A stretch of 64,000 nucleotides of DNA from a bacterium (GTDB lineage: Bacteria > Zhuqueibacterota > QNDG01 > JAFGCO01). The notes beneath the pieces are model-generated. The model had not been told where the DNA came from. It saw only the letters and a program-made list of their open reading frames with translations, and made no database searches. Every line of letters begins with the position of its first letter. The stretch's first letter is position 1. The stretch covers positions 1 to 64,000 of the forward strand of contig JAFGCO010000029.1 of the NCBI GenBank assembly GCA_016932575.1. The letters are read 5' to 3'. Below are positions 1 to 12,184 of the stretch, one piece after another. The translations under genes were made by a program, and so were the position numbers.

Positions 1-264
1 TGCTCTTATGCTCTTGTGCTCTTATGCTCTTGTGCTCTTATGCTCTTATGCTCTTGTGCTCTTATGCTCTTGTGCTCTTATGCTCTTGTGCTCTTATGCT
101 CTTGTGCTCTTGTGCTCTTGTGCTCTTGTGCTCTTGTGCTCTTGTGCTCTTGTGCTCTTGTGCTCTTGTGCTCTTGTGCTCTTATGCTCTTGTGCTCTTG
201 TGCTCTTGTGCTCTTGTGCTCTTATGCTCTTGTGCTCTTGTGCTCTTGTGCTCTTATGCTCTTC
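1..264. repeat. 8-bp tandem repeat array, at least 32 copies
   Basis: The unit is TGCTCTTR (minus strand YAAGAGCA), perfectly phased from base 1 to 256, with a degenerate 33rd unit TGCTCTTC at 257-264. The array continues past the left edge. Only the last base varies. In the outer part A- and G-type units mostly alternate (units 1-12), units 13-22 are all G-type, and later A-type units are 23, 28 and 32. Because 8 is not a multiple of 3, each unit is read in a new frame and three units give an 8-residue peptide period (EHKSTRAQ). A TAA stop appears only when an A-type unit falls in one particular phase. The array forms the 3' end of the NuoC-like gene. Confidence 0.97.
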
Positions 265-762
265 AATACCTGGTATACTTTCAAAGGTCTTTTTGACATA
301 TTTTCGCGTATCAAAATCTTTCCTGAAAGGCGGTATTTTATATTTCCGTTCCAGAAAAAGCGGGATAAGCCGCGGATGTCCTTCAAAATGAATGCCAAAA
401 AGTTCATGTATTTCGCGCTCATAGGGCTCTGCATTTTCAAAGATCGGAATGACTGAAAGAAACACCGGTTTTTCTCTGGGAATTCGTGTTTTCACAAGTA
501 TGTTGATTTTTTCATTTTCAGTATATGTTTTATTGTCTTTCATATAAGCAGAAAGTATGTATACAAGCTCGAATGCCTTCTCTTGGATCCAGTCCACACA
601 AGAGATGATGCCCAGATGACTATAACCGTTATTTTTTAAAAAACTCAGGACAGCCAGAACTGCCTCTTTTCTTGATTGAATGACAATCCGGTTTTTTTCT
701 GATACATCCACATCAATCTTATCAAAAACTGACACTAATTCTTTCTTTAACGAATGACTCAT
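94..762 (-). CDS. NuoC/MbxK-like subunit (30-kDa type) with repeat-encoded C-terminal tail
   Basis: This is the hydrophilic subunit that docks the small and large catalytic subunits in complex I and group 4 hydrogenase-type complexes. The family signature is visible at about residues 114-138, YEREIHELFGIHFEGHP, followed by PPFRKDFD. The ATG at 762 overlaps the upstream stop (ATGA) and has a purine-rich GGGGGAAAGGG just before it; an upstream start at 795 would lie inside the neighbour. The conserved protein ends near residue 166. The remaining 55 or so residues are EHKSTRAQ repeats read from the 8-bp array until the first in-phase TAA. Whether the tail is really translated or tolerated is unknown. 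A large-subunit gene would be expected next, beyond the left edge. Confidence 0.85.
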   Translation of the reverse strand: MSHSLKKELVSVFDKIDVDVSEKNRIVIQSRKEAVLAVLSFLKNNGYSHLGIISCVDWIQEKAFELVYILSAYMKDNKTYTENEKINILVKTRIPREKPVFLSVIPIFENAEPYEREIHELFGIHFEGHPRLIPLFLERKYKIPPFRKDFDTRKYVKKTFESIPGIEEHKSTRAQEHKSIRAQEHKSTRAQEHKSTRAQEHKSTRAQEHKSTRAQEHKSTRA

Positions 763-1316
763 CCCTTTCCCCCGATCGAAAACAATGGCGGCCATTCCAA
801 CTTCCCCAGGGCCCTTTCCTGATTTTCCCGATACGCCTGATAATTTTTCCGGTAGCGTTTATATCCGTCAGCCATATCTTTGTCAATCAATGTCCAGAGA
901 TGGGTGACAGCCACAAAAATAGCTTCCGGTCTCGGCATACAGCCGGCGATCCAGCCGTCCACCGGGATGTATTTATCCAGATGTTTAATCGTATTGTATG
1001 AATCCCAATACATGCCTCCGTTGATGGGGCATGAACCGAATCCGACCGTAAATTTCGGCTCCGGCATTTGTTCATAAGTCCGAATAATGGCTCGCAGCGT
1101 TTTAACGGAGACATATCCGGTAATTAAAAAAAGATTTGCCTGCCGGGGTGTGGCCACAGGCAGCACACCGAAGCGTTCTGCATCCCATCGGGCTGTAATG
1201 GAGGGAGGGACTTCAATGATCCCGCATCCTGTACAAAAATAGACCGCATGAAGCGAATACTTATGCCCCATCTTCGCCGGTGTTTTCAGCCATTTGTTTA
1301 ATTGATTCCGATCCAT
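759..1316 (-). CDS. NuoB/MbxJ-like small subunit (4Fe-4S)
   Basis: 185 residues matching the small subunit of group 4 [NiFe]-hydrogenase-related complexes and NuoB. It holds the proximal [4Fe-4S] cluster that passes electrons to or from the catalytic subunit. Four candidate ligands are visible: C28 and C31 in FCTGCG, C96 in GFGSCPINGG and C126 in GCMPRPEA. The CxxC form resembles hydrogenase and Mbx small subunits rather than the tandem CC of classical NuoB. It lies 98 bp after the NuoH-like gene and overlaps the NuoC-like start by 4 bp. Whether the complex evolves H2 or reduces sulfane sulfur cannot be decided without the large subunit. Confidence 0.9.
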   Translation of the reverse strand: MDRNQLNKWLKTPAKMGHKYSLHAVYFCTGCGIIEVPPSITARWDAERFGVLPVATPRQANLFLITGYVSVKTLRAIIRTYEQMPEPKFTVGFGSCPINGGMYWDSYNTIKHLDKYIPVDGWIAGCMPRPEAIFVAVTHLWTLIDKDMADGYKRYRKNYQAYRENQERALGKLEWPPLFSIGGKG

Positions 1317-1414
1317 TCGACCTCACTTCTTTCGGATGATCAAAGCGACCTTAATAAAACGTAAATAGAGCTGAAAAAATCCGCTGATTCTATTCACAGT
1401 TTATGGTTCGCTTT

Positions 1415-2332
1415 TTAACCCGCACTCACTGATTTCATCACAATGACGACAATTAATCCGACCAGGGCCAGCAGTGTCGGCCATCGCCATAAATACTGCA
1501 CCGCCTGCTCAATTCTCAATCGGGGCAAAGCCGCATTGATAAAAATCCCAAGCACAAAGACAACCAGCATCTTTATAAAAAAGAACAGCGGGTTTCCGGC
1601 ACCCCCTAAAAAAAGATTGACAAAGAGGGCAATGCCGATAAAAAGATTCAACGCGTGCTGTATCGTGGCCAGGGCCAGGTAGGGACCTCCATATTCCACC
1701 ATCGGACCAGATGAAATTTCCTGAGGTGCCTGGACAACTTCAAACGGCCGGATTCCCAGAATCGCCGGCATAATTGAAATATAGCCGATCCCCGACAATA
1801 CAAGCGGAGAAGACAATAAAGCCCACCCTGCGTATTGCTGCCTAAAGACGATTTCAACAATTGAAATGGTCTCATAATGCGTCATCAGAGCAAGCAGGAT
1901 CAGAAGCAGGGGGACTTCATAACCCAGTGCCAGAATCAGTTGTCGGGAAATACCGATACTGGTATTCGGATTGGCCGCTTCTCCGCCGCTCAATGCCAGT
2001 CCCAAAGGAGCCAGAAGCAGCATGTAGAGAATCACCAGCATACCACCTGAATCACTGAGCGGATGAATTCTTCCAACCGGAATAAATAAAATGACAACAA
2101 TAGAACCTGCCAAAGACAAGATGAGCCCCAGATTGAATAAATGGCCATGGGTCACGCTCTTTTGACTGAACAGCCGGATGATATCGATGATTGGCTGAGT
2201 CCACGGCGGACCATACCGCCAATGGATTCGGGCCATCATTTTTCTGGATAATCCTAAAAAGAATATGCCAATAATCAAAGCCAGTATTGGCGATAAAATC
2301 ATCGCGATTATCTGCATTACCACAGGCTCCAT
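1415..2332 (-). CDS. NuoH/MbxM-like membrane subunit
   Basis: 305 residues with about eight hydrophobic helices. It corresponds to the NuoH/HyfC/MbhM membrane anchor that links the peripheral electron-transfer arm to the antiporter-like arm. The family motif is seen as GIRPFEVVQAPQEISSGPMVEYGG in the central cytoplasmic loop, with several acidic residues that in NuoH line the coupling channel. It starts inside the last 16 bp of the preceding NuoL-like gene, so it is probably translationally coupled. Its place before the NuoB and NuoC-like genes (M-J-K order) is the Mbx/Mbs arrangement, not the J-K-L-M order of Pyrococcus Mbh. Confidence 0.9.
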   Translation of the reverse strand: MEPVVMQIIAMILSPILALIIGIFFLGLSRKMMARIHWRYGPPWTQPIIDIIRLFSQKSVTHGHLFNLGLILSLAGSIVVILFIPVGRIHPLSDSGGMLVILYMLLLAPLGLALSGGEAANPNTSIGISRQLILALGYEVPLLLILLALMTHYETISIVEIVFRQQYAGWALLSSPLVLSGIGYISIMPAILGIRPFEVVQAPQEISSGPMVEYGGPYLALATIQHALNLFIGIALFVNLFLGGAGNPLFFFIKMLVVFVLGIFINAALPRLRIEQAVQYLWRWPTLLALVGLIVVIVMKSVSAG

Positions 2333-4173
2333 TTCAATTGCATGAAGATCAAAACAGCCAAAAACAGCACGATATACGTAACATAATGGCCCACATAACC
2401 GGTATAAGTCTTTCTAACAATATTGCACAGTGTCTGTGTCCATCCTGCCAGTTTGAAATAAAAAATATCCATAAAATCCTTCAGATAGGGCTTGATCATC
2501 CTGTAAAAGGGATTGTAAAAATCCACAGTGTAATGATACTTACCTTCGGGAATGGACGCACCGGCAGCATATGTATTTTCCTGAGAAGCAGAAACGGATT
2601 TGGGGCCTGTTTTTAAAATGAGCCATATAATCACACAACCGGTCAGAATAGCAGCAAAGAGATTGATTGTGTTTAATGATCCGGTTTCCGAAACGATTCC
2701 CCACAAAGTCACATTCAATGATTTAAAACCAAATGACGCAATAATCGAATTGATCACTTTTAATGGCAAACCAGGAAGAATGCCAAATAAAAGAATAGTC
2801 AAAGACAAAATAACAATGGGGATCTGCATATTGACAGGAGATTTCTTAATATCCTTATATTTTTCGGGAAGCTGTCCTAAAAACAGGTTGTGTAAAAATT
2901 TATAAACAGACAGAATGGTTCCCCAGGTCCCGATTAAAGCCGTAAAGGCCAAAAATGGCGAACCATTTAAAATCAATGTCTTATAGATCAGCCACTTGGA
3001 TACAAATCCATTTGTCAAAGGCAGCCCAATCAGGCCTGAAATTCCAAAAAGAGCGCCAATAAAGGCGATTGGCATTTTCTTGATTAAACCGCCCATTGAG
3101 TTTAAATCACGCTCTCCTCCGGTGCGATACTGAACAGCTGCTACACTCATAAAAAGAAGGACGATATAAATGGCATGATTCAATGTGTGAAATATGCCTC
3201 CAGCCAAACCGAGATTTGTTCCATAGGCAATACCCAGCACCATGTAACCGCCCTGTCCGATCCCATGCCATGCCAAAAGTTTTTTTGCGTCATTCTGTAA
3301 CATGGCAATAAAGGTTGGTATAACAATGGTTACGGCTCCTAACCAGGCGAGGATATAATTAAACTTCAACAGTCCGTAACCCATATTCAATGTCTGCACG
3401 GATCCGATAATAACATACATAATCATAAGAAAACCATAGACACCCATTCGGGTAAGCATGCCCGAAAGAACCGCCGTAAATGGGGAGGGCGCTTCTGCAT
3501 AAGCATCCGGCAGCCAAGTGTGAAGCGGCATAATGGCATTTTTAATGGCAAAAGCAGTGCCGAAAACAATCAATAAAAATAACAGGTATCCTGGAGAAGC
3601 AGAAGAAACCAGATTTGAAAGCATATAGATATTCACAGTTTGATAAACTGCATAGAGGGACAGCATCCCGATCAGCATGGCCATGGATCCGATAATCGAA
3701 AAAACAATATATTTCATCCCTGCTGCCAGGGCGCTTCCCCGGTTATAACTGATTAACAGGAATGTGGACCAGCTCATCATTTCCCAGAAAATAAAAAATG
3801 AAACCAGATCGCCCGAGAAAACAATACCCAGCATTGAAGCATTGATCAGGAGCATCATCAGATAATAAAAATCGGTTCTTTCCCTGTCCCTCATATAGCT
3901 TAATGAGAAAATAACCGACAGGGCACCTAATGTGGAAACTGCCATGGCAAAAAACCAGGAAAGCGGACTTATTCTCAGAGTGAGTTCCAGTCCCATAAAA
4001 TGATAATAAGAGGTTACTGCTCCAATTTTACCGTATAAACCGGCAATCATGGCCACCAGGATCACTGAAACAAATACAGCAAATCCATCTCTCAATCCGG
4101 ATGATATTTTACCCAACAGATAGGTCAATAGTGAGCCACCAAAAGCGGCAGCCAGTAAAAGTTCCAAACTCAT
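2317..4173 (-). CDS. NuoL/MrpA/MrpD-type antiporter-like subunit (second copy, MbxH'-like)
   Basis: 618-residue polytopic protein of the Proton_antipo_M family, proposed to conduct H+ or Na+ in the membrane arm. The key charged residues of active members are present: a glutamate in FFIFWEMMSW (TM5) and a lysine in AIKNAIMPLHTWLPDAYAEAP (TM7), then an N-SH-Y/H region around GGIFHTLNHAIY. The C-terminal part carries an extra amphipathic stretch and one further helix, as in NuoL. It overlaps the upstream MrpD-like gene by 4 bp. Two antiporter-like subunits in tandem are characteristic of Mbx/Mbs rather than Mbh complexes. Confidence 0.9.
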   Translation of the reverse strand: MSLELLLAAAFGGSLLTYLLGKISSGLRDGFAVFVSVILVAMIAGLYGKIGAVTSYYHFMGLELTLRISPLSWFFAMAVSTLGALSVIFSLSYMRDRERTDFYYLMMLLINASMLGIVFSGDLVSFFIFWEMMSWSTFLLISYNRGSALAAGMKYIVFSIIGSMAMLIGMLSLYAVYQTVNIYMLSNLVSSASPGYLLFLLIVFGTAFAIKNAIMPLHTWLPDAYAEAPSPFTAVLSGMLTRMGVYGFLMIMYVIIGSVQTLNMGYGLLKFNYILAWLGAVTIVIPTFIAMLQNDAKKLLAWHGIGQGGYMVLGIAYGTNLGLAGGIFHTLNHAIYIVLLFMSVAAVQYRTGGERDLNSMGGLIKKMPIAFIGALFGISGLIGLPLTNGFVSKWLIYKTLILNGSPFLAFTALIGTWGTILSVYKFLHNLFLGQLPEKYKDIKKSPVNMQIPIVILSLTILLFGILPGLPLKVINSIIASFGFKSLNVTLWGIVSETGSLNTINLFAAILTGCVIIWLILKTGPKSVSASQENTYAAGASIPEGKYHYTVDFYNPFYRMIKPYLKDFMDIFYFKLAGWTQTLCNIVRKTYTGYVGHYVTYIVLFLAVLIFMQLKWSLW

Positions 4174-5666
4174 CCCAGCACACTCCTGATATAGTCAATT
4201 TGGTTGAGCAGCTCTGATGCAGCAGAGTCTAAAATCCCCAGCACAAATTTTGGATAAATCCCGATGATAATGATGACTGCTGTAAAAAGAAACATGGGGA
4301 TTAATGCGGCAATCGGGGCCTCATTTCTTTCAGAATCTCCGTTTCCTTTTTTAAAGTAAATCACCTGAACTATCCTGAAAAAATAGGCACCTTCAATGAC
4401 TGTTCCCATTAAAACAAGACCGGTCAGTATAGTAAACAAAACCGTCCCTTTGGCCAGAGCCGATTGGATAATCAAAAATTTACTGGGAAATCCGATAAAC
4501 GGGGGCAGGCCTACGATTGAAAATGCACCAATGGTAAAAGCCACGCAAGTCAGCGGCATACGCTTTCCCATACCCTCGAATGAAGCGGTTTTCATAGAGC
4601 CGCTTCTGATAATCATATATCCGGCTGCCATAAAGAGCAGGCCCTTCCCCAAAGTATGGCTGATCATCTGAAACAGCCCGCCGGCCACAGCATGTGAAGT
4701 GGCGATGGCAAATGCAAATACCATTAATCCAATCTGGCCGATACTTGAATAGGCAAGCATTCTCTTGATGTTATTCTGACTGAAGGCACACATCTCACCG
4801 ATGAGCAGGGTCAATACGCCTAAAAATACAAAAAACATGATGAAATCCGAAATTCCAAATATCGTAAACAGAATACGAATGACTGCATAAAGCCCCACTT
4901 CGATGGCAATACCGGAAAGAATGGCGCTGATCGATGAGGGGGCTGAAGAGTGAGCATCCGGAAGCCAGGCATTGAGTGGAAACAAAGCTGCCTCAACGCC
5001 TAAACCGGTAATCATCAGAGCCATGGGAATAAATACAGTCACAGGATCGGCCGATGATATCTGCCGGGCGAGATCCGCCATGTTCAGGGTGCCGAAAAGA
5101 CCATATAACAAACCGATACCGATTAAAAGCAGGCTTGACCCTATCGCGCCCTGGATTAAATATTTTACCGCAGATTCAATACCGCTTTTATTGCCAAAAT
5201 AGCCTACCAGGGTATACGAGGATATGCAGAGAATTTCAAAGAAAACAAAAAGATTGAATATATCACCAGTCAACACAACACCCATGGCTCCGGTTAAAAG
5301 CAGCAGATAAAGAATATGATACCTGACTTCCGGTCCTTCTTTGATATACACCACTGCATAAATGGAAACCATTAATCCGGCAAACGCAATTAATGCCGAG
5401 AAAAGAATCCCAACCGGACCCGCAACCAGATTAATGCCGAAAGGCGGTACAAATCCTCCGATCTGAATAATAATCGGCTTATCCAATACATCCGGAATGT
5501 TTGATAATGCTCCGACAAGGACAAATGAATAAACAAAAACCGGAACCCATTTTACAATCTTTTTGGAAATCATTCCCAACAGGGGGATTCCGAATGCAAA
5601 TCCCAGGGGCACAACAATGAAAAGGACAGGATTGATCCCGTTTAAAAATAAGCCAAAATCATTCAT
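4170..5666 (-). CDS. MrpD/MbxH-type antiporter-like subunit
   Basis: 498 residues from the ATG at 5666, which has AAAGGATT upstream; the frame is open further up but only through the intergenic region and the end of the MrpC gene. About 14 membrane helices of the Proton_antipo_M family. TM5 glutamate is present (E144, FVFFEIL). At the TM7 position where a lysine is usual (VKAALFPLHxWLPDA) the sequence reads VEAALFPLNAWLPDA, with Glu225. A lysine later in the protein (SHTLGKGLLF) is kept. This may be a subfamily trait and would alter the proton-relay model for this subunit. It sits between the MrpC-like and second antiporter-like genes. Confidence 0.9.
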   Translation of the reverse strand: MNDFGLFLNGINPVLFIVVPLGFAFGIPLLGMISKKIVKWVPVFVYSFVLVGALSNIPDVLDKPIIIQIGGFVPPFGINLVAGPVGILFSALIAFAGLMVSIYAVVYIKEGPEVRYHILYLLLLTGAMGVVLTGDIFNLFVFFEILCISSYTLVGYFGNKSGIESAVKYLIQGAIGSSLLLIGIGLLYGLFGTLNMADLARQISSADPVTVFIPMALMITGLGVEAALFPLNAWLPDAHSSAPSSISAILSGIAIEVGLYAVIRILFTIFGISDFIMFFVFLGVLTLLIGEMCAFSQNNIKRMLAYSSIGQIGLMVFAFAIATSHAVAGGLFQMISHTLGKGLLFMAAGYMIIRSGSMKTASFEGMGKRMPLTCVAFTIGAFSIVGLPPFIGFPSKFLIIQSALAKGTVLFTILTGLVLMGTVIEGAYFFRIVQVIYFKKGNGDSERNEAPIAALIPMFLFTAVIIIIGIYPKFVLGILDSAASELLNQIDYIRSVLG

Positions 5667-5727
5667 TTTCGAAAATCCTTTTTCCCATACGGTATAACGA
5701 CCATCTGGATCAATGGTTCTAGCCGGA

Positions 5728-6111
5728 TTACCATCTTTGCTCCCTGATTTGTCGCAGATCAAGCGTTCCGTAATGCTGGTAGAGCCGAACAGCCAAAGAA
5801 AGAGCCAGTGCCAAAACCGCAACGCCGATAACAATCGCAGTCAGTACCAGCGCCTGAGGAACGGGATCTACCATGCTTTTGCCTTCAATCGAAGCATTTG
5901 AAAAAATAGGAGCTGTTCCTTTGCTTATATAACCTACAGAAACCAGAAACAGATTGACTCCCGTCTCAAGAATACTCAAACCGAGAATCACCTTGATCAA
6001 ATTTCGCTTCACCAGCATGATAAATAATCCGATGAATATCAGACCGAAGGCCCCTATATAATAGGTATAATTCTGCATAAAATGGATCACACCCTGAATA
6101 TCCATTTTCAT
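5728..6111 (-). CDS. mrpC: MrpC/NuoK-type membrane subunit
   Basis: 127 residues with three hydrophobic helices, the usual size and layout of NuoK, MrpC and MbhG. The motif VILGLSILETGVNLFLVSVGYI contains the conserved TM2 glutamate. There is an unusually hydrophilic tail after the third helix, ending in RQIREQRW. It lies 17 bp after the MbhE-MrpB fusion gene and 61 bp before the MrpD-like gene. In Mrp antiporters and in Mbh/Mbx the C and D subunits touch and form the ion path, which fits the local order. Confidence 0.88.
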   Translation of the reverse strand: MKMDIQGVIHFMQNYTYYIGAFGLIFIGLFIMLVKRNLIKVILGLSILETGVNLFLVSVGYISKGTAPIFSNASIEGKSMVDPVPQALVLTAIVIGVAVLALALSLAVRLYQHYGTLDLRQIREQRW

Positions 6112-6128
6112 CTCCTGTTATCAAATCT

Positions 6129-6815
6129 TTATTCACTGTCTTCTATCAGGTGATCGATCACACCGGCCAGTTCGGACCCCACTTTAAAACCAATGGCGAT
6201 ATACAGGATTGGAATAACGCCTGCACTGAACAGTGTATTCAGCTCACCCTTTGGTAAAAAGTTTGAAAGGAAGTATCGTCCGCCGACTGCCAGACCTGCC
6301 AGTCCGATCCCGATAAAAATCAGTCCGCCTAACGATTCGACTGCTTTACTGCCAGTTTCACTAATCCGTCTCCCCCGGCATCCCAGATACACAAGAACAA
6401 AGGCCGAAGCAACGATAGCTCCCCCCTGGAAACCACCCCCCGGAGTCAAATGACCATGAATAAAAATATACGCGCCAAAAAGCAGGATCAACGGGAACAG
6501 AAACCGACAGCCAGTATACAGCACCAGGCTTGCTGATTCTATTTCCCGTTTCTTTTTCTTTCGATTTGTGCTTAAAACGGCACCCAAACCAATCGCTGCC
6601 ACAAAGAGAACCGTTATTTCGCCAAGCGTATCAAATCCCCGGTAATTGAGCACCACTGAAGTGACAATGTTCGCAGCGCCGGTTTCTTCCCTTCCCTGAT
6701 CAATATATCGCTGTCCGACCCGGGTTTCTGAAGAACCAAAAGGTATCTCTTGCAGCACTGTAATCATACCCCAGGCGATGACAACCAACAGAAAAATACT
6801 GATAATGCTTCTCAT
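6129..6815 (-). CDS. MbhE-MrpB fusion protein (membrane subunit)
   Basis: 228 residues that join two subunits which are separate in Pyrococcus Mbh. Residues 1-80 resemble MbhE, the MrpA C-terminal segment, with TSVVLNYRGFDTLGEITVLF. Residues about 95-228 are an MrpB/MnhB domain with the signature HGHLTPGGGFQGGAIVASAF. A Lys/Arg-rich linker NRKKKKRE separates them. Six or seven membrane helices are expected. It overlaps the DUF4040 gene start region by 4 bp and so is part of the same message. In canonical Mrp the equivalent segments belong to MrpA and MrpB. Confidence 0.88.
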   Translation of the reverse strand: MRSIISIFLLVVIAWGMITVLQEIPFGSSETRVGQRYIDQGREETGAANIVTSVVLNYRGFDTLGEITVLFVAAIGLGAVLSTNRKKKKREIESASLVLYTGCRFLFPLILLFGAYIFIHGHLTPGGGFQGGAIVASAFVLVYLGCRGRRISETGSKAVESLGGLIFIGIGLAGLAVGGRYFLSNFLPKGELNTLFSAGVIPILYIAIGFKVGSELAGVIDHLIEDSE

Positions 6816-7054
6816 TCCTCAAACCTCTCGGTTCGTCTGATTGCAACGATGAAAACCGCTGTGATCAATGCCGCTCCTATTGATGCCTCTGCCATGGCCA
6901 CATCCGGAGCCTGCAGAAAATAAAACAGGATGGATGCGATCAGGCTGACCATACAGGCAGCAATCACTGCACTCATCAGATCTTTAAAAATAAGGGCGGC
7001 AACAGCCGCTACAAGCATCAATAATACGAATAGGGATACGACAATGATCATCAT
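6812..7054 (-). CDS. MbhD-like DUF4040 membrane subunit
   Basis: 80 residues, almost entirely three hydrophobic helices. It matches the DUF4040/MbhD segment that corresponds to part of MrpA. The conserved QAPDVAMAEASIGAALITAVFIVAIRRTE stretch is present, including the glutamate in VAMAEA that is typical of the family. It overlaps its neighbours by 4 bp on each side, which points to coupled translation and fixed stoichiometry within the Mrp-like module. Confidence 0.87.
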   Translation of the reverse strand: MMIIVVSLFVLLMLVAAVAALIFKDLMSAVIAACMVSLIASILFYFLQAPDVAMAEASIGAALITAVFIVAIRRTERFEE

Positions 7055-7380
7055 GTTTTCCTGTCCTTCTTAAAATCTTTGGTCTGATCCACCACGGTTT
7101 TATGACAAAGAGGAACCCCAATTTTATTGGATGCTCTGGCAATGGCATGGCTGGAGATGGGATTGGTAGCCATGACAAACAGAGCAATGAGACATGCCTT
7201 CCAAAACCATGAGGGCTCCAAAATTCCAATACCGAGAATCGCCAGAAAGGCGCCCAATGTCGTACATTTGGTACCTGCCTGAATCCTATTATAGACATCG
7301 GGCAATCTCAGCACACCCAAATTCCCTAAAAATAAAAACAGAACGCCTATTCCTGTAATAATTGTTCCGAATCCATTCAT
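7051..7380 (-). CDS. mrpG: MrpG/MnhG-type subunit
   Basis: 109 residues with three helices. MnhG family motifs are visible: GVLFLFLGNLGVLRLPDVYNRIQAGTKCTTLGA and a C-terminal DQTKDF. It is a structural subunit of Mrp-type Na+/H+ antiporters, and MbxC in Mbx-like complexes. The coding frame touches the MrpF gene directly upstream and overlaps the DUF4040 gene by 4 bp. Confidence 0.9.
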   Translation of the reverse strand: MNGFGTIITGIGVLFLFLGNLGVLRLPDVYNRIQAGTKCTTLGAFLAILGIGILEPSWFWKACLIALFVMATNPISSHAIARASNKIGVPLCHKTVVDQTKDFKKDRKT

Positions 7381-7641
7381 TTAAATGCCCTTTTCTAAAA
7401 ATCTGGCGATTGCAACCAATCCGACAAAAGCCAACAGGGAATACACCAAAGCAACATCCAGATACACATATCGCTTAAACACGAAACCGAGAAAAACCAG
7501 TAAAGCGACAACCGTTGTGGTAATCGTATCTACTGCCACAGCACGATCTGAAGCCGTCGGTCCCTTCAGCATACGCAACAGGCAAAGAAAAATACCTGCG
7601 CCTATGAAAGCCAAATAAATAAAAATAATTGTCCCGCTCAT
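7381..7641 (-). CDS. mrpF: MrpF/MnhF-type subunit
   Basis: 86 residues with three helices. The MnhF signature RMLKGPTASDRAVAVDTITT is intact, with the conserved Asp in the first loop. It is the equivalent of MbxB/MbhB. It follows the MrpE gene after 87 bp, the largest gap inside this half of the operon, and abuts the MrpG gene. No terminator-like hairpin is seen in the gap. Confidence 0.9.
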   Translation of the reverse strand: MSGTIIFIYLAFIGAGIFLCLLRMLKGPTASDRAVAVDTITTTVVALLVFLGFVFKRYVYLDVALVYSLLAFVGLVAIARFLEKGI

Positions 7642-7728
7642 GCAGACCTCATTGGATACCTTTTAAAGACACCTTTCAGCAAAATTGGTTTTATCCTTCA
7701 TACTTCTGAAGATTGAATTTGGATCTGA

Positions 7729-8253
7729 CTACTCGGCAAATATCACCCTCAGATATTTTTCAAATCTTTCGCCGATCATTTTTGTGGTTTCATCAGTTTT
7801 CTGTGACTGGACATTGATCCAGTGAATAAGGAGTGTATCCCCCAGGATGTCCAGGGTAAATGTACCAGGCGTTAAGGTAATCGAATTTGCCAGAATCATC
7901 TTTGCTATATCCTGCTTCAATCCTGTCTTGATTAAAACAATACCCGGCTTGATGGGCATTTTTGGGTGAATCACCCGATAGGCCACATCAATATTGGCAA
8001 CGACTATTTCCTTGAAAAGCATGATCATATAGATAATAATAAATACCAGCCGCTTTATGCTGAGCGGGGGAAATCCCAATGCAAGATAATTTTTATGCAA
8101 AACAAGAGACAGGGCAAAACTGATGAAAACACCGATGCTGAGTTCCTGCCATTGGAAGCTGGAGGTTAGTGCAAGCCATGAGATGAACAGAATAAAAAAC
8201 AGATAGGCAAAACTTCTCATGCGATGGATTGTTTTATATTTTACTTCCGGCAT
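7729..8253 (-). CDS. mrpE: MrpE/MnhE-type subunit
   Basis: 174 residues. The ATG at 8253 is preferred because GAAAGGG lies about ten bases upstream; a TTG at 8274 is the alternative. The MnhE family pattern is present: two N-terminal helices, the cytoplasmic RLVFIIIYMIMLFKEIVVANIDVAYRVI segment, and the C-terminal GTFTLDILGDTLLIHWIN. It is the first structural gene after rex, 24 bp away, matching MbxA/MbhA as first gene of archaeal operons. Transcription presumably starts at the Rex-controlled promoter. Confidence 0.9.
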   Translation of the reverse strand: MPEVKYKTIHRMRSFAYLFFILFISWLALTSSFQWQELSIGVFISFALSLVLHKNYLALGFPPLSIKRLVFIIIYMIMLFKEIVVANIDVAYRVIHPKMPIKPGIVLIKTGLKQDIAKMILANSITLTPGTFTLDILGDTLLIHWINVQSQKTDETTKMIGERFEKYLRVIFAE

Positions 8254-8277
8254 CGAATCATGCCCTTTCTTCAAAAA

Positions 8278-8916
8278 TTATCTTTTCTTTACAAGATCTT
8301 CCCTCGAGGAATAATAGATCAGTCGGGCCATTTCTGTACTTAAATCAACACATGTGACTTTAATATTATCCGGCATTGCCAGTTGACATGGGGCAAAAGA
8401 CAAAATGGCATTGACACCCGCATCTGCCAGCCGGCGGGCAATGGTGGGTGATACAGTTTCAGGTACTGCTAGTATACTCAATTGAATATTTTCGGATTTT
8501 ACTCTTTTTTCAAGATTACCCATGTCTTCAATGGTGACATCACCAATTTTCCGCCCGATTTTATTCGGTTGGTTATCAAATGCCATGGTAATCTTAAACC
8601 CCTCCAATTCAAAATTTTTATATAAAAGTAATGCCTTTCCAATGTTCCCCACACCAATCAGGGCCACTTTTTTTGCAGGCTTCAAGCTGAGTATATTTTG
8701 TATTTCTTCCTTAAGCGCCTGAACATCATAACCAACGCCGCGTTTGCCAAAATAACCAAAATAGGAAAAATCTTTCCGTATCATCGCAGGATTGACATGG
8801 CAGACCTCTGCAAGTCTGGAAGAAGAAACCGTATCGGTCCCTTGTTTTGACAAACAAACCAGCGCCCTAATATAAGGGAAAAGGCGGCCGATGGTTTCAT
8901 TTGGAATAGATTTCAT
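8278..8916 (-). CDS. rex: Redox-sensing transcriptional repressor Rex
   Basis: 212 residues. Rex senses the NADH/NAD+ ratio and leaves DNA when NADH binds. The winged helix occupies residues 1-75 (SSSRLAEVCHVNPAMIRKDFSYFGYFGKRGVGY) and the Rossmann domain starts at VALIGVGNIGKA with the GxGxxG at 88-93. The domain-swap C-terminal helix (DLSTEMARLIYYSS) is kept. It heads the Mrp/complex-I-like operon and has a Rex-type operator overlapping its own promoter. The natural reading is that reducing power controls expression of a ferredoxin-linked, ion-pumping oxidoreductase. Function is secure; the target list is inferred from position. Confidence 0.96.
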   Translation of the reverse strand: MKSIPNETIGRLFPYIRALVCLSKQGTDTVSSSRLAEVCHVNPAMIRKDFSYFGYFGKRGVGYDVQALKEEIQNILSLKPAKKVALIGVGNIGKALLLYKNFELEGFKITMAFDNQPNKIGRKIGDVTIEDMGNLEKRVKSENIQLSILAVPETVSPTIARRLADAGVNAILSFAPCQLAMPDNIKVTCVDLSTEMARLIYYSSREDLVKKR

Positions 8917-8923
8917 GATAATC

Positions 8924-8947
8924 TTGTGATAGTGATTACATTCACAA
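8924..8947 (-). promoter_or_regulatory. Rex operator (probable)
   Basis: An 18-bp dyad at 8930-8947 reads TAGTGATTACATTCACAA, against the Rex consensus TTGTGAAxxxxTTCACAA; the half-sites GTGA and TCACAA are intact. A further TTGTGA at 8924-8929 forms a wider dyad with the same TCACAA arm, so two half-site registers share one arm. It lies between the -10 element and the rex start codon, covering the expected transcription start. Binding would block initiation, giving autoregulation and operon control. Confidence 0.75.
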
Positions 8948-8985: not shown

Positions 8986-9333
8986 TTATTTCGGTTGATT
9001 TTTTTCATCGACCCGCACGATTTTTTCTTTGAATGTTCGGGTTTCTCCATTGCTGACCAGTGCATATGAAATCACACACAGCTTGTCTCCGATTTCACCC
9101 AACCGGGCGGCCGGTCCGTATAATGCCATCATACCGGAATTTTCTTTTTCTTCAATGATATACGTTTCGAACCGTTCTCCGTTGTTGAAATTCAGGACCT
9201 GGACCTTCTCTCCGGGAATCATATCGCTCAATATAAGAAGCGAACGGTCGATCCCGATGCTGCCGGAGTAATTCAATTCTTTTTTTGTCAGAACGGCATT
9301 CATTATTTTTGATTTTAAAACATGTCGAAACAT
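8986..9333 (-). CDS. panD: Aspartate 1-decarboxylase
   Basis: 115 residues from the ATG at 9333, which has GGAAAGGAAAG upstream. PanD converts L-aspartate to beta-alanine for pantothenate and CoA. The self-cleavage pair is exactly where expected, Gly24-Ser25 in NYSGSIGID, and Lys9, Arg54 and Tyr58 of the active site are kept. The conserved GPAARL and GDK blocks follow. It is the last gene of the operon running from 14.5 kb and ends just before the rex promoter. The usual pantothenate partners panB and panC are not nearby. Confidence 0.94.
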   Translation of the reverse strand: MFRHVLKSKIMNAVLTKKELNYSGSIGIDRSLLILSDMIPGEKVQVLNFNNGERFETYIIEEKENSGMMALYGPAARLGEIGDKLCVISYALVSNGETRTFKEKIVRVDEKNQPK

Positions 9334-9358
9334 GCCGCTTCTTTCCTTTCCATTTTTT

Positions 9359-10156
9359 TTAATCATTCCATAAAGCATGGCCTGCCATAAAAACAGCGGT
9401 TGCCAGTGTGGTATAGGCAAACCAGCGCTTCAAATGCACGGGTTTGATTTTCAAAGAAATATGACCACCCAATAATCCGGCTGCAACCGCCGTGACGATG
9501 AAGGGAATCAACCATATTGAATCAAAATCACCGGCCAGCGCATGACCGCCAAAACCCATCATGGCCGTGAAAGCCACCATCGCCGAAGAAGTGCCCACGG
9601 CAATGCGCATGGGGACGCCGCAGAGTAAAACCATGATCGGAATTTTGAAACTTCCGCCCGAAATGCCGGTCATACCCGCAAAAAAACCAACACCTGCGGT
9701 CAATGGGATCGTAAGCCAGAGATTGACCTGATATTGTGATCCCCCAAAGGAACGCGTCCAGAATCCGATTTGTTTTTTCTGCTTCGGTTTTTTCACTCGG
9801 ATGGGTCTGATCATAAACACCACAGCAATGGTCAGAAGTAGAGCAAAAACGATTTTTAAACAGCCGTCATTGAACCGGTGGGCATAGAATCCTCCCGCAA
9901 ATGCCATGATATCGGTCGGCGGATCGATCATCAGCGCCAGTTTCCAATCTATTGTCCTGTGTTGATGAAATATACACATGGCTGCTAAAGAAACAATCAT
10001 TAAAATGAACTGGGCGTGGGCGGCGGCCATGGACATGGAAAAACCCGCGGCAACAAGCAGGGGGACATAAAAATTGCCGCCTCCCCTGCCCAGCATACTC
10101 ATCAAGGAACCCAGTAAAAATACTGAAAAACAAACGATGATTATATTTAAGGTCAT
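9359..10156 (-). CDS. TSUP (TauE/SafE) family permease
   Basis: 265 residues, about eight helices in two homologous halves. The first half has SMLGRGGGNFYVPLLVAAGFS and the second GISGGSFKIPIMVLLCGVPMRIAVGTSSAMV, the paired signatures of the TauE/SafE family, whose members move sulfite, sulfonates, sulfide-derived or other small anions across the inner membrane. The substrate cannot be read from sequence. It sits 56 bp after the DUF169 gene and 25 bp before panD. A sulfur-compound role would agree with an Mbx-like sulfane reductase next door, but this is only inference. Confidence 0.85.
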   Translation of the reverse strand: MTLNIIIVCFSVFLLGSLMSMLGRGGGNFYVPLLVAAGFSMSMAAAHAQFILMIVSLAAMCIFHQHRTIDWKLALMIDPPTDIMAFAGGFYAHRFNDGCLKIVFALLLTIAVVFMIRPIRVKKPKQKKQIGFWTRSFGGSQYQVNLWLTIPLTAGVGFFAGMTGISGGSFKIPIMVLLCGVPMRIAVGTSSAMVAFTAMMGFGGHALAGDFDSIWLIPFIVTAVAAGLLGGHISLKIKPVHLKRWFAYTTLATAVFMAGHALWND

Positions 10157-10834: not shown

Positions 10835-12184
10835 TCAGCACATTTTACCGGAAGCGTCAAAAGCTGCTTTCACAATGGGATACATAGTAGGCGCCGCCGT
10901 GACAAAAGGATGTGTTGCCATCTGCAGAGTTTCCAGTTCTGTATAGGAGACCCGCTGCTGAATCGCCATTCCGATTATATTAATCAATTCCCCGCAGCAC
11001 ATTCCCCCGGCCACCTGACCTCCAAGAATAATACCGGACTTCTTAGAAAAGATCAGTTTCATATGAATTTTATGTGCCCTTGGCAGAGTCGCCGGATGTT
11101 TGTCGATGGCTTCCGCAGCACCTATGATAATTTCAAAATTTTCCTTTTGTGCGGTCGTTTCGGTCAGACCAGCGGAGCCCATGACCAGGCCATCCACATA
11201 GGTGGAATATATCGCAATGGTCCCCTTGTTTTCCCGGACAACTTTCAATTTGTAAAGATTGGCACCTGCGATGCGTGCCTCTGCAGTTGCTGTGGATGCA
11301 AGCATCACCGGAGCGTCTTTTCGTGTATAAAAATCCCGTTTGCCTGCACAGTCGCCAACGGCAAAAATGTCGGGATCAACCGTACGCATGTATTCATCCA
11401 CCCAGATACCTTTTCCTTTTCCGATGTCCAGACCCGCTGAGACTGCAAGGCTGGTGTTTGGTACTGCACCCACACCAAGAATGATACTGTCTGCGGGAAT
11501 GACTTCGCCGGAAGAAAGCCGGACTTTTTCAACCGTACCATTTCCGATAATTTCTTCTACCCGCGTGCCTGTCGCCACTCTGATTTTCTTTGAATTTAAT
11601 TTTTCTTCAGCTAATTTAGAAAATTCGGGATCAAAAGAATTTGCCAGTAAATGATCAAGCATCTCGACCAGGGTGACCTTCATGCCGGAGATCTGAGAAA
11701 TTTCATCAGCAAACTCCACACCGATAAATCCACCTCCGATCACCACGACATGCTTGCCCTTTTTTACATTGTCAATCGCAGGAATCAGATAATCCATGTC
11801 TTTGTGAACCGGATAAACGCCTTTTTTATCCATACCGGCAATGGGCGGTATATAAGGAACGGATCCGACAGCAAGAATCAGTTTATCATATCCGATCTCG
11901 GAATTATCCTTCAAAGTGACTTGTTTTTTTTGCCGGTTGATGGATCGCGCTTCACCGGAAATCACAACTGCACCAATCTTTTCCAAAGGCGCAATCCCCA
12001 TTTTATTTTCTTCCGGATGATTCAGACTGGAAAACATATAGGGAATACCGCAGGGAACGCATCCGTTTTCAATGCTCCTCACAACCGCAATGGTTTTGTC
12101 AGGATAATATCTGTTCGCAGTGACTGCGCTGACCAGTCCTGCAGGACCGCCGCCGATAATCAGAATATCGAATGTCTTGTTCAT
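10835..12184 (-). CDS. FAD/NAD(P)-dependent disulfide reductase (CoA-disulfide reductase/NADH oxidase family)
   Basis: 449 residues. FAD-binding GGGPAG at 11-16, a second Rossmann motif VVVIGGGFIGVEFADE near 146-161, and the FAD-contacting DIFAVGDCA. The active-site region reads NGCVPCGIPYMF, with Cys45 in the CGxPY position used by CoA-disulfide reductases, NADH oxidases and NADH-dependent persulfide reductases; an additional Cys42 is three residues before it. Substrate candidates include CoA or polysulfide/persulfide species. The start overlaps the methyltransferase stop by 4 bp. The NAD(P)H-linked sulfur option is attractive beside the Mbx-like operon, but unproven. Confidence 0.85.
   Translation of the reverse strand: MNKTFDILIIGGGPAGLVSAVTANRYYPDKTIAVVRSIENGCVPCGIPYMFSSLNHPEENKMGIAPLEKIGAVVISGEARSINRQKKQVTLKDNSEIGYDKLILAVGSVPYIPPIAGMDKKGVYPVHKDMDYLIPAIDNVKKGKHVVVIGGGFIGVEFADEISQISGMKVTLVEMLDHLLANSFDPEFSKLAEEKLNSKKIRVATGTRVEEIIGNGTVEKVRLSSGEVIPADSIILGVGAVPNTSLAVSAGLDIGKGKGIWVDEYMRTVDPDIFAVGDCAGKRDFYTRKDAPVMLASTATAEARIAGANLYKLKVVRENKGTIAIYSTYVDGLVMGSAGLTETTAQKENFEIIIGAAEAIDKHPATLPRAHKIHMKLIFSKKSGIILGGQVAGGMCCGELINIIGMAIQQRVSYTELETLQMATHPFVTAAPTMYPIVKAAFDASGKMC

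Follow-up and report, generated by a model that had tools for sequence, protein, structure and literature searches.

The stretch examined here, called the window below, comprises the first 64,000 nucleotides of contig JAFGCO010000029.1 (C45 in our numbering) from a bacterium of the Zhuqueibacterota (assembly GCA_016932575.1), and it opens within an operon for a complex I-like membrane complex. Comparison of its subunits supports assignment of this complex to the family of membrane-bound sulfane reductase (MBS) and MBX, in which it appears to be a Rex-linked variant of the known bacterial Mbx complexes that has lost all of its active-site cysteines. Its function can be proposed from these sequence features: we see about an even chance that it works as an NADH-fed, ion-pumping disulfide or polysulfide reductase of the MBS/MBX type, equipped with a built-in NfnL/GltD flavoprotein.

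Eleven mbx genes lie within the window on the minus strand, between positions ~94 and 8274, in the order A-B-C-D-(E+F)-G-H-H'-M-J-K. The first six were recognized as open reading frames (ORFs) with conserved synteny, namely MbxA (MrpE-like, 7729..8274, with syntenic homologues in the nearest relatives that are 68-74% identical), MbxB (MrpF-like, 7381..7641), MbxC (MrpG-like, 7051..7380), MbxD (DUF4040, MbhD-like, 6812..7054), MbxE, a fusion of MbhE-like and MrpB-like parts (6129..6815), and MbxG (MrpC-like, 5728..6111). They are followed by two PF00361 proteins, the antiporter-like proton-channel subunit MbxH (4170..5834, with its real start probably ~60 codons inside the called ORF) and a second antiporter-like subunit, MbxH', which has a C-terminal lateral-helix extension (2317..4173), and then by the NuoH-like membrane anchor MbxM (1415..2332), the NuoB-like MbxJ (759..1316), and the NuoC-like MbxK (94..795, PF00329). 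The initial annotation had read the genes in this same sequence, with adjacent antiporter-like subunits and NuoH ahead of NuoB-NuoC, and indeed all eleven were confirmed; the extent it gave was 94-8253, but the MrpE-like gene starts at a TTG at 8274. Since almost all of the complete relatives show this order, including a closing L and N (L093 has its A-H' block after N), it is not a product of chance. The residues expected of the ion pump are mostly retained in H, H', and M: MbxH keeps the equivalents of MbsH E138, E219, and K393, and MbxH' keeps E128, K217, H336, and K399, with K248 replaced by Arg.

The large subunit is not visible in the window, because the contig itself ends there, within the operon. 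However, a NuoD-like gene lies at the end of contig C32 of the same genome, and the end of C32 and the start of C45 share one 8-bp tandem repeat (GTGCTCTT/ATGCTCTT, plus strand 1..263 in the window, seen directly at the contig edge) that has no other copy in the 4.4 Mb assembly. In two relatives (L043 and L048) the order rex-A-B-C-D-E-G-H-H'-M-J-K-L-N is uninterrupted. From the unique repeat and this synteny, we infer that the operon continues into C32 with a small ORF for a four-helix-bundle protein in the region of the repeat, MbxL, the large subunit (L005:16840-17979), and MbxN (L005:14951-16798), both outside the window and on the minus strand. The repeat is read in frame at the C-terminus of MbxK, which is extended by ~50 residues of (EHKSTRAQ)n. 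The four-helix-bundle ORF (TIGR02436, L005:18067-18590) and the repeat separate MbxK from MbxL; the genome has six copies of TIGR02436, and in the Mbx loci of L054, L105, L114, and L124 such ORFs sit elsewhere.

Placement of the complex with MBS/MBX rather than with the membrane-bound hydrogenase (MBH) was the central claim of the initial annotation, and it is strongly supported, as every subunit searched matched MBS best. For L, J, H, H', and M alike, the top-scoring PDB entry was Pyrococcus furiosus MBS (6u8y), with E values of 3.7e-100 for MbxH (6u8y_H), 3e-75 over nearly the full length of MbxH' (6u8y_X), 2e-64 for MbxJ (6u8y_J), and 1.3e-60 for MbxM (6u8y_M, versus 1e-19 for 6cfw_M). MbxL scored 341 bits against MbsL versus 139 bits against MbhL, the NuoI part of MbxN favored MBS by 20 orders of magnitude (6u8y_N, E 1e-29, versus 6cfw_N, 5e-9), and MbxJ aligned to 6u8y_J without a gap across its CTGCG motif. 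The gene order seen here is also that of the P. furiosus mbx list (PF1453-PF1441), whereas mbh has a single antiporter and places NuoH after NuoD (PMC2678158). The MbhE+MrpB fusion has likewise been described for P. furiosus MbsE as an MBS trait (PMC8415708). Order alone is not diagnostic, though, because the same genome encodes a true group 4 [NiFe] hydrogenase on contig C11 (L006, C11:30000-48000) in which NuoH precedes NuoB-C-D and two antiporter-like subunits are present, albeit not adjacent to each other; we therefore dropped the combination of two antiporters and a leading NuoH as a mark of Mbx. These two subunits and the two in the window account for all four PF00361 proteins of the genome. 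The C11 cluster retains intact RICGICSTSH and DPCYCCTERA motifs and includes Mrp subunits, with HydB/HydG-like diaphorase genes in front.

In MbxL, the positions of the four [NiFe] ligands are occupied by N, E, V, and E, as compared with C, E, C, and D in MbsL and four cysteines in the C11 hydrogenase. Inspection of the large subunit for its ligand motifs had been proposed as the check on the assignment, and in the MbxL of C32 the C-terminal motif is lost and no ligand cysteine remains; the outcome named as a refutation, a large subunit with intact NiFe ligands, was thus not obtained. As all four cysteines are gone, the complex is not a hydrogenase. An MBH-type group 4 [NiFe] hydrogenase would share its overall architecture, and in five relatives Mbx is immediately followed downstream by another cluster that resembles a hydrogenase (L063 and, at least in part, L049, L052, L054, and L055, all related to the C11 cluster), yet the absence of ligand cysteines at the four positions both in this MbxL and in its 22 clade mates refutes that explanation and leaves it a negligible probability. 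The 23 MbxL with Asn at the first ligand position form one clade (support 99/83) from genomes labelled as more than 10 phyla, and the surrounding Mbx proteins mostly keep two cysteines, as does P. furiosus MbsL with its C85 and C385. Both of these residues are dispensable for catalysis in P. furiosus (PMC7684303). Thus, their replacement here by Asn and Val marks a variant and does not exclude the complex from MBS/MBX. The NiFe-site cysteines have all been lost once more, independently of this clade, in L098, L103, L080, L120, and their relatives (which have Ala, Glu, Tyr, and Glu), a group of Bacteroidota/Spirochaetota/Marinimicrobia Mbx in which the equivalent of MbsJ C25 is also missing wherever J could be read.

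MbxJ, the carrier of the proximal [4Fe-4S] cluster, has a shortened motif relative to the C11 hydrogenase, like that of MBS. There, with the short MbsJ motif, just three cysteines bind the proximal cluster and one iron is catalytic, C25 being no ligand (PMC7684303). Of the 65 sequences aligned, 23 have Gly at the C25 position, and the remaining three cysteines are invariant, a motif that suggests a proximal cluster held by three cysteines in MbxJ as well. Overall, the complex resembles P. furiosus MBS in its gene order, two antiporter-like subunits, fused E, short proximal-cluster motif, and lack of a NiFe site.

MbxN sets the two complexes apart: a two-cluster NuoI domain is followed by an NfnL/GltD flavoprotein, whereas MbsN has 208 residues and lacks this second half. 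All 16 cysteines of the four clusters are invariant across 89 MbxN sequences, and the motifs for flavin adenine dinucleotide (FAD) and NAD are likewise conserved, which argues that the fused half is in catalytic use. This conservation also speaks against a ferredoxin-fed sulfane reductase that works in just the way P. furiosus MBS does and uses the fused half of MbxN solely for side entry or regulation; the subunit-by-subunit similarity to MBS and the conserved MbxJ motif speak for such an enzyme, but we regard it as unlikely. The predicted structure of MbxN is confident (predicted local distance difference test, 87; predicted template modelling score, 0.83), and its C-terminal part matches NfnL from 5jca and 4ylf with template modelling scores of 0.84-0.86 by target length. 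Its C-terminal 450 residues resemble the NfnL of Nfn (4ylf, 5jca) in fold, FAD site, and two clusters, and differ from it in being fused to NuoI and in the nucleotide pocket, where Leu-Glu stands instead of Arg-Arg. Among the ORFs of the operon, none was recognized by eye as an NfnS-like partner. After strand beta-2 of the nucleotide domain, ~83 of the 89 MbxN have x-Leu-Glu and three have Tyr-Arg-Arg, the latter being found at this position in nearly all of the other NfnL/GltD proteins compared. An acid at this position of a Rossmann fold favors NADH over NADPH, and MbxN would therefore be expected to prefer NADH. In L044 and L047, where just one of the two NiFe-site cysteines that Mbx proteins mostly keep is missing from MbxL, MbxN retains Tyr-Arg-Arg, like that of L046, and the complex of L044/L047 is possibly an NADPH version.

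More than 557 relatives of the fused MbxN were found, and in the operons that were inspected, including those of Thermotogaceae, Halanaerobium, Prolixibacter and other Bacteroidota, and Spirochaetota, L is followed by the fused N. We had considered the NuoI-GltD fusion as new, but dropped this notion, as N usually has this form among the sampled loci of bacterial Mbx; these loci were collected with the fused N as query, a sampling that unfused bacterial Mbx would escape. MbxN also matches NF010590 over its full length, below the cut-off of that model. What is peculiar to the clade of the window is the loss of all four NiFe cysteines and a rex gene at the operon head, often with an operator. 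The Mbx of Thermotogaceae (L076, L112) and Halanaerobium (L085) have an identical order and an identical fusion, but keep two NiFe-site cysteines, and rex was undetected in these three loci. For T. maritima Mbx, expression data were all that turned up (PMC9431562). The sudA-linked MBX of Desulfurococcaceae is similar in tying an Mbx-type complex to a SudA/GltD-type NAD(P)H module, but in that case the module is a separate gene and the Mrp part is missing in some species.

The rex gene itself, which encodes an NADH/NAD+-sensing repressor (8278..8916, minus strand; NF003995, 237.8 bits versus a cut-off of 126), heads the cluster, and an operator-like site precedes it (TTGTGAATGTAATCACTATCACAA, 8924..8947, minus strand). 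Its best 18-mer (8930-8947) lies 13 nt ahead of the rex start codon and has one mismatch to TTGTGAN6TCACAA (shuffle p < 0.001), while a simple palindrome search with TTGT-N10-ACAA returned only chance-level matches. A rex gene occupies the equivalent place in seven relatives (L043, L048, L057, L058, L059, L061, and L073), and a site with one mismatch to TTGTGAN6TCACAA lies 3-16 nt ahead of rex in L043, L048, L057, and L059 as well as in the window, L058 being the one locus of the six that lacks it. Neither the rex gene nor the site belongs to the likeness with P. furiosus MBS. In Pyrococcus, the MBS regulator is SurR. Searches of the open-access literature for Rex with Mbx and for the NADPH-pocket residues yielded nothing useful. 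Control by Rex suggests that the complex is used when NADH is high, and together with the NfnL/GltD module on NuoI and the Leu-Glu pocket it suggests NADH as an electron donor.

In the scheme that we favor, abundant NADH would cause Rex to leave its operator, and NADH would then pass a hydride to the FAD that the C-terminal half of MbxN carries. From there, electrons would move through the two [4Fe-4S] clusters of the flavoprotein half and the two of the NuoI half to the proximal cluster of MbxJ, whose open iron, at the chamber between MbxJ and MbxL, would reduce a sulfur-sulfur bond in polysulfide or in an organic or CoA persulfide or disulfide. The energy freed would drive the proton channels of MbxH and MbxH' and the sodium/proton exchange of the Mrp-type module, possibly with ferredoxin as a second donor. 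The initial annotation had suggested that ferredoxin oxidation may be coupled to a reduction linked to NAD(P) or sulfane, together with ion pumping; this pointed to the right area, except that the evidence favors NADH as a donor over a ferredoxin-oxidizing direction. That direction is the essence of a ferredoxin:NAD(P)+ oxidoreductase with ion pumping, in which ferredoxin would enter at NuoI and NADH or NADPH would leave at the flavoprotein. The fused NfnL-type module is indeed related to ferredoxin:NADP oxidoreductases, and transfer from ferredoxin to NADPH has long been proposed for P. furiosus Mbx (PMC2678158, PMC3035292). However, P. furiosus MBS was proved to reduce polysulfide (PMC7684303), electrons would skip the MbxJ/L chamber that is the place of coupling in all solved relatives, an RnfD-family protein is already encoded on another contig, and use at high NADH fits this direction poorly, so that we consider it possible but doubtful.

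Several points weigh against an NADH-fed sulfur-bond reductase. By standard potentials, little energy is released between NADH and polysulfide, and NADH by itself could hardly drive two proton channels, a problem that ferredoxin as a second donor would solve. The Leu-Glu argument is one of general Rossmann-fold knowledge as opposed to measured specificity, and no biochemistry of any fused MbxN was found in the open-access literature. Rex also controls NADH-producing enzymes in some bacteria, and thus does not fix the direction. The sulfur-reductase-like gene of the window, described below, lies 2 kb off the operon and scores under its cut-off, and nqr-like genes in this genome hint at a quinone made via an unrecognized route. 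A rather speculative extension, to which we assign a low probability, is that the FAD of MbxN bifurcates or confurcates, such that the chain receives electrons from NADH together with reduced ferredoxin, or ferredoxin is reduced at the expense of NADH oxidation at the sulfur site. If true, flavin-based electron bifurcation and ion pumping would be combined in one respiratory complex and the small driving force of NADH would be solved.

Those nqr genes (nqrABCDE-like by eye, without an adjacent nqrF; L129, contig C22:114000-130000) also bear upon whether the complex is a complex I-like NADH:quinone oxidoreductase with a replacement NADH module, as might be read from the absence of the four NiFe cysteines, which are also gone in complex I, and from the NADH module on NuoI. 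The MbxJ CTGCG motif is nevertheless of the MBS type and not the tandem-Cys type of complex I, the quinone residues His38 and Tyr87 of Nqo4 are Val and Val in MbxL, and neither MqnA/D nor, above its cut-off, MenD was found in the 94.5% complete genome, all of which makes quinone reduction very improbable. A link to sulfur is suggested by a flavoprotein resembling NADH:sulfur oxidoreductase or CoA-disulfide reductase (10835..12184, minus strand; TIGR03385, 224 bits, under the cut-off of 579). Two relatives have its homologue inside the operon, L063 with A and B on either side and L053 ahead of B along with an ArsR-type regulator; in L072 it comes immediately after N and in L095 it neighbors N. 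The flavoprotein is possibly a functional partner of Mbx. In T. maritima, mbxA is up 4.4-fold with sulfur, and a gene similar to the sulfur-reductase-like one rises alongside (PMC9431562).

The concept of an NAD(P)H-fed Mbx is not new, as NADPH oxidation with protons or sulfur as the acceptor was earlier suggested for the archaeal sudA-linked Mbx (PMC3035292), whereas the Rex-linked, cysteine-free clade seems to be undescribed as far as the open-access literature goes. The family followed a path parallel to that of complex I, with a lost NiFe site (all four cysteines in the present case) and a different NAD(P)H module, NfnL/GltD, fused to the same docking subunit. Complex I is thought to have originated when an Mrp antiporter and a hydrogenase-like arm were joined, after which the NiFe site was lost and an NADH module was gained. 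The family occurs in many anaerobic phyla that are known mostly from metagenomes, and knowing which donor and acceptor it uses would help to explain how these fermenters get rid of NADH and conserve energy; its cultured hosts (Halanaerobium, Prolixibacter, and Thermotogales) make it directly testable.

The interval that separates rex from the sulfur-reductase-like gene holds, on their strand, genes named by eye as TauE-like sulfite exporter family (9359-10156) and PanD-like (8986-9420). In four relatives, a small CBS-domain-like protein is encoded directly downstream of MbxN (L043:2713-3093, L048:14342-14725, L057:11874-12263, and L063:11878-12261).

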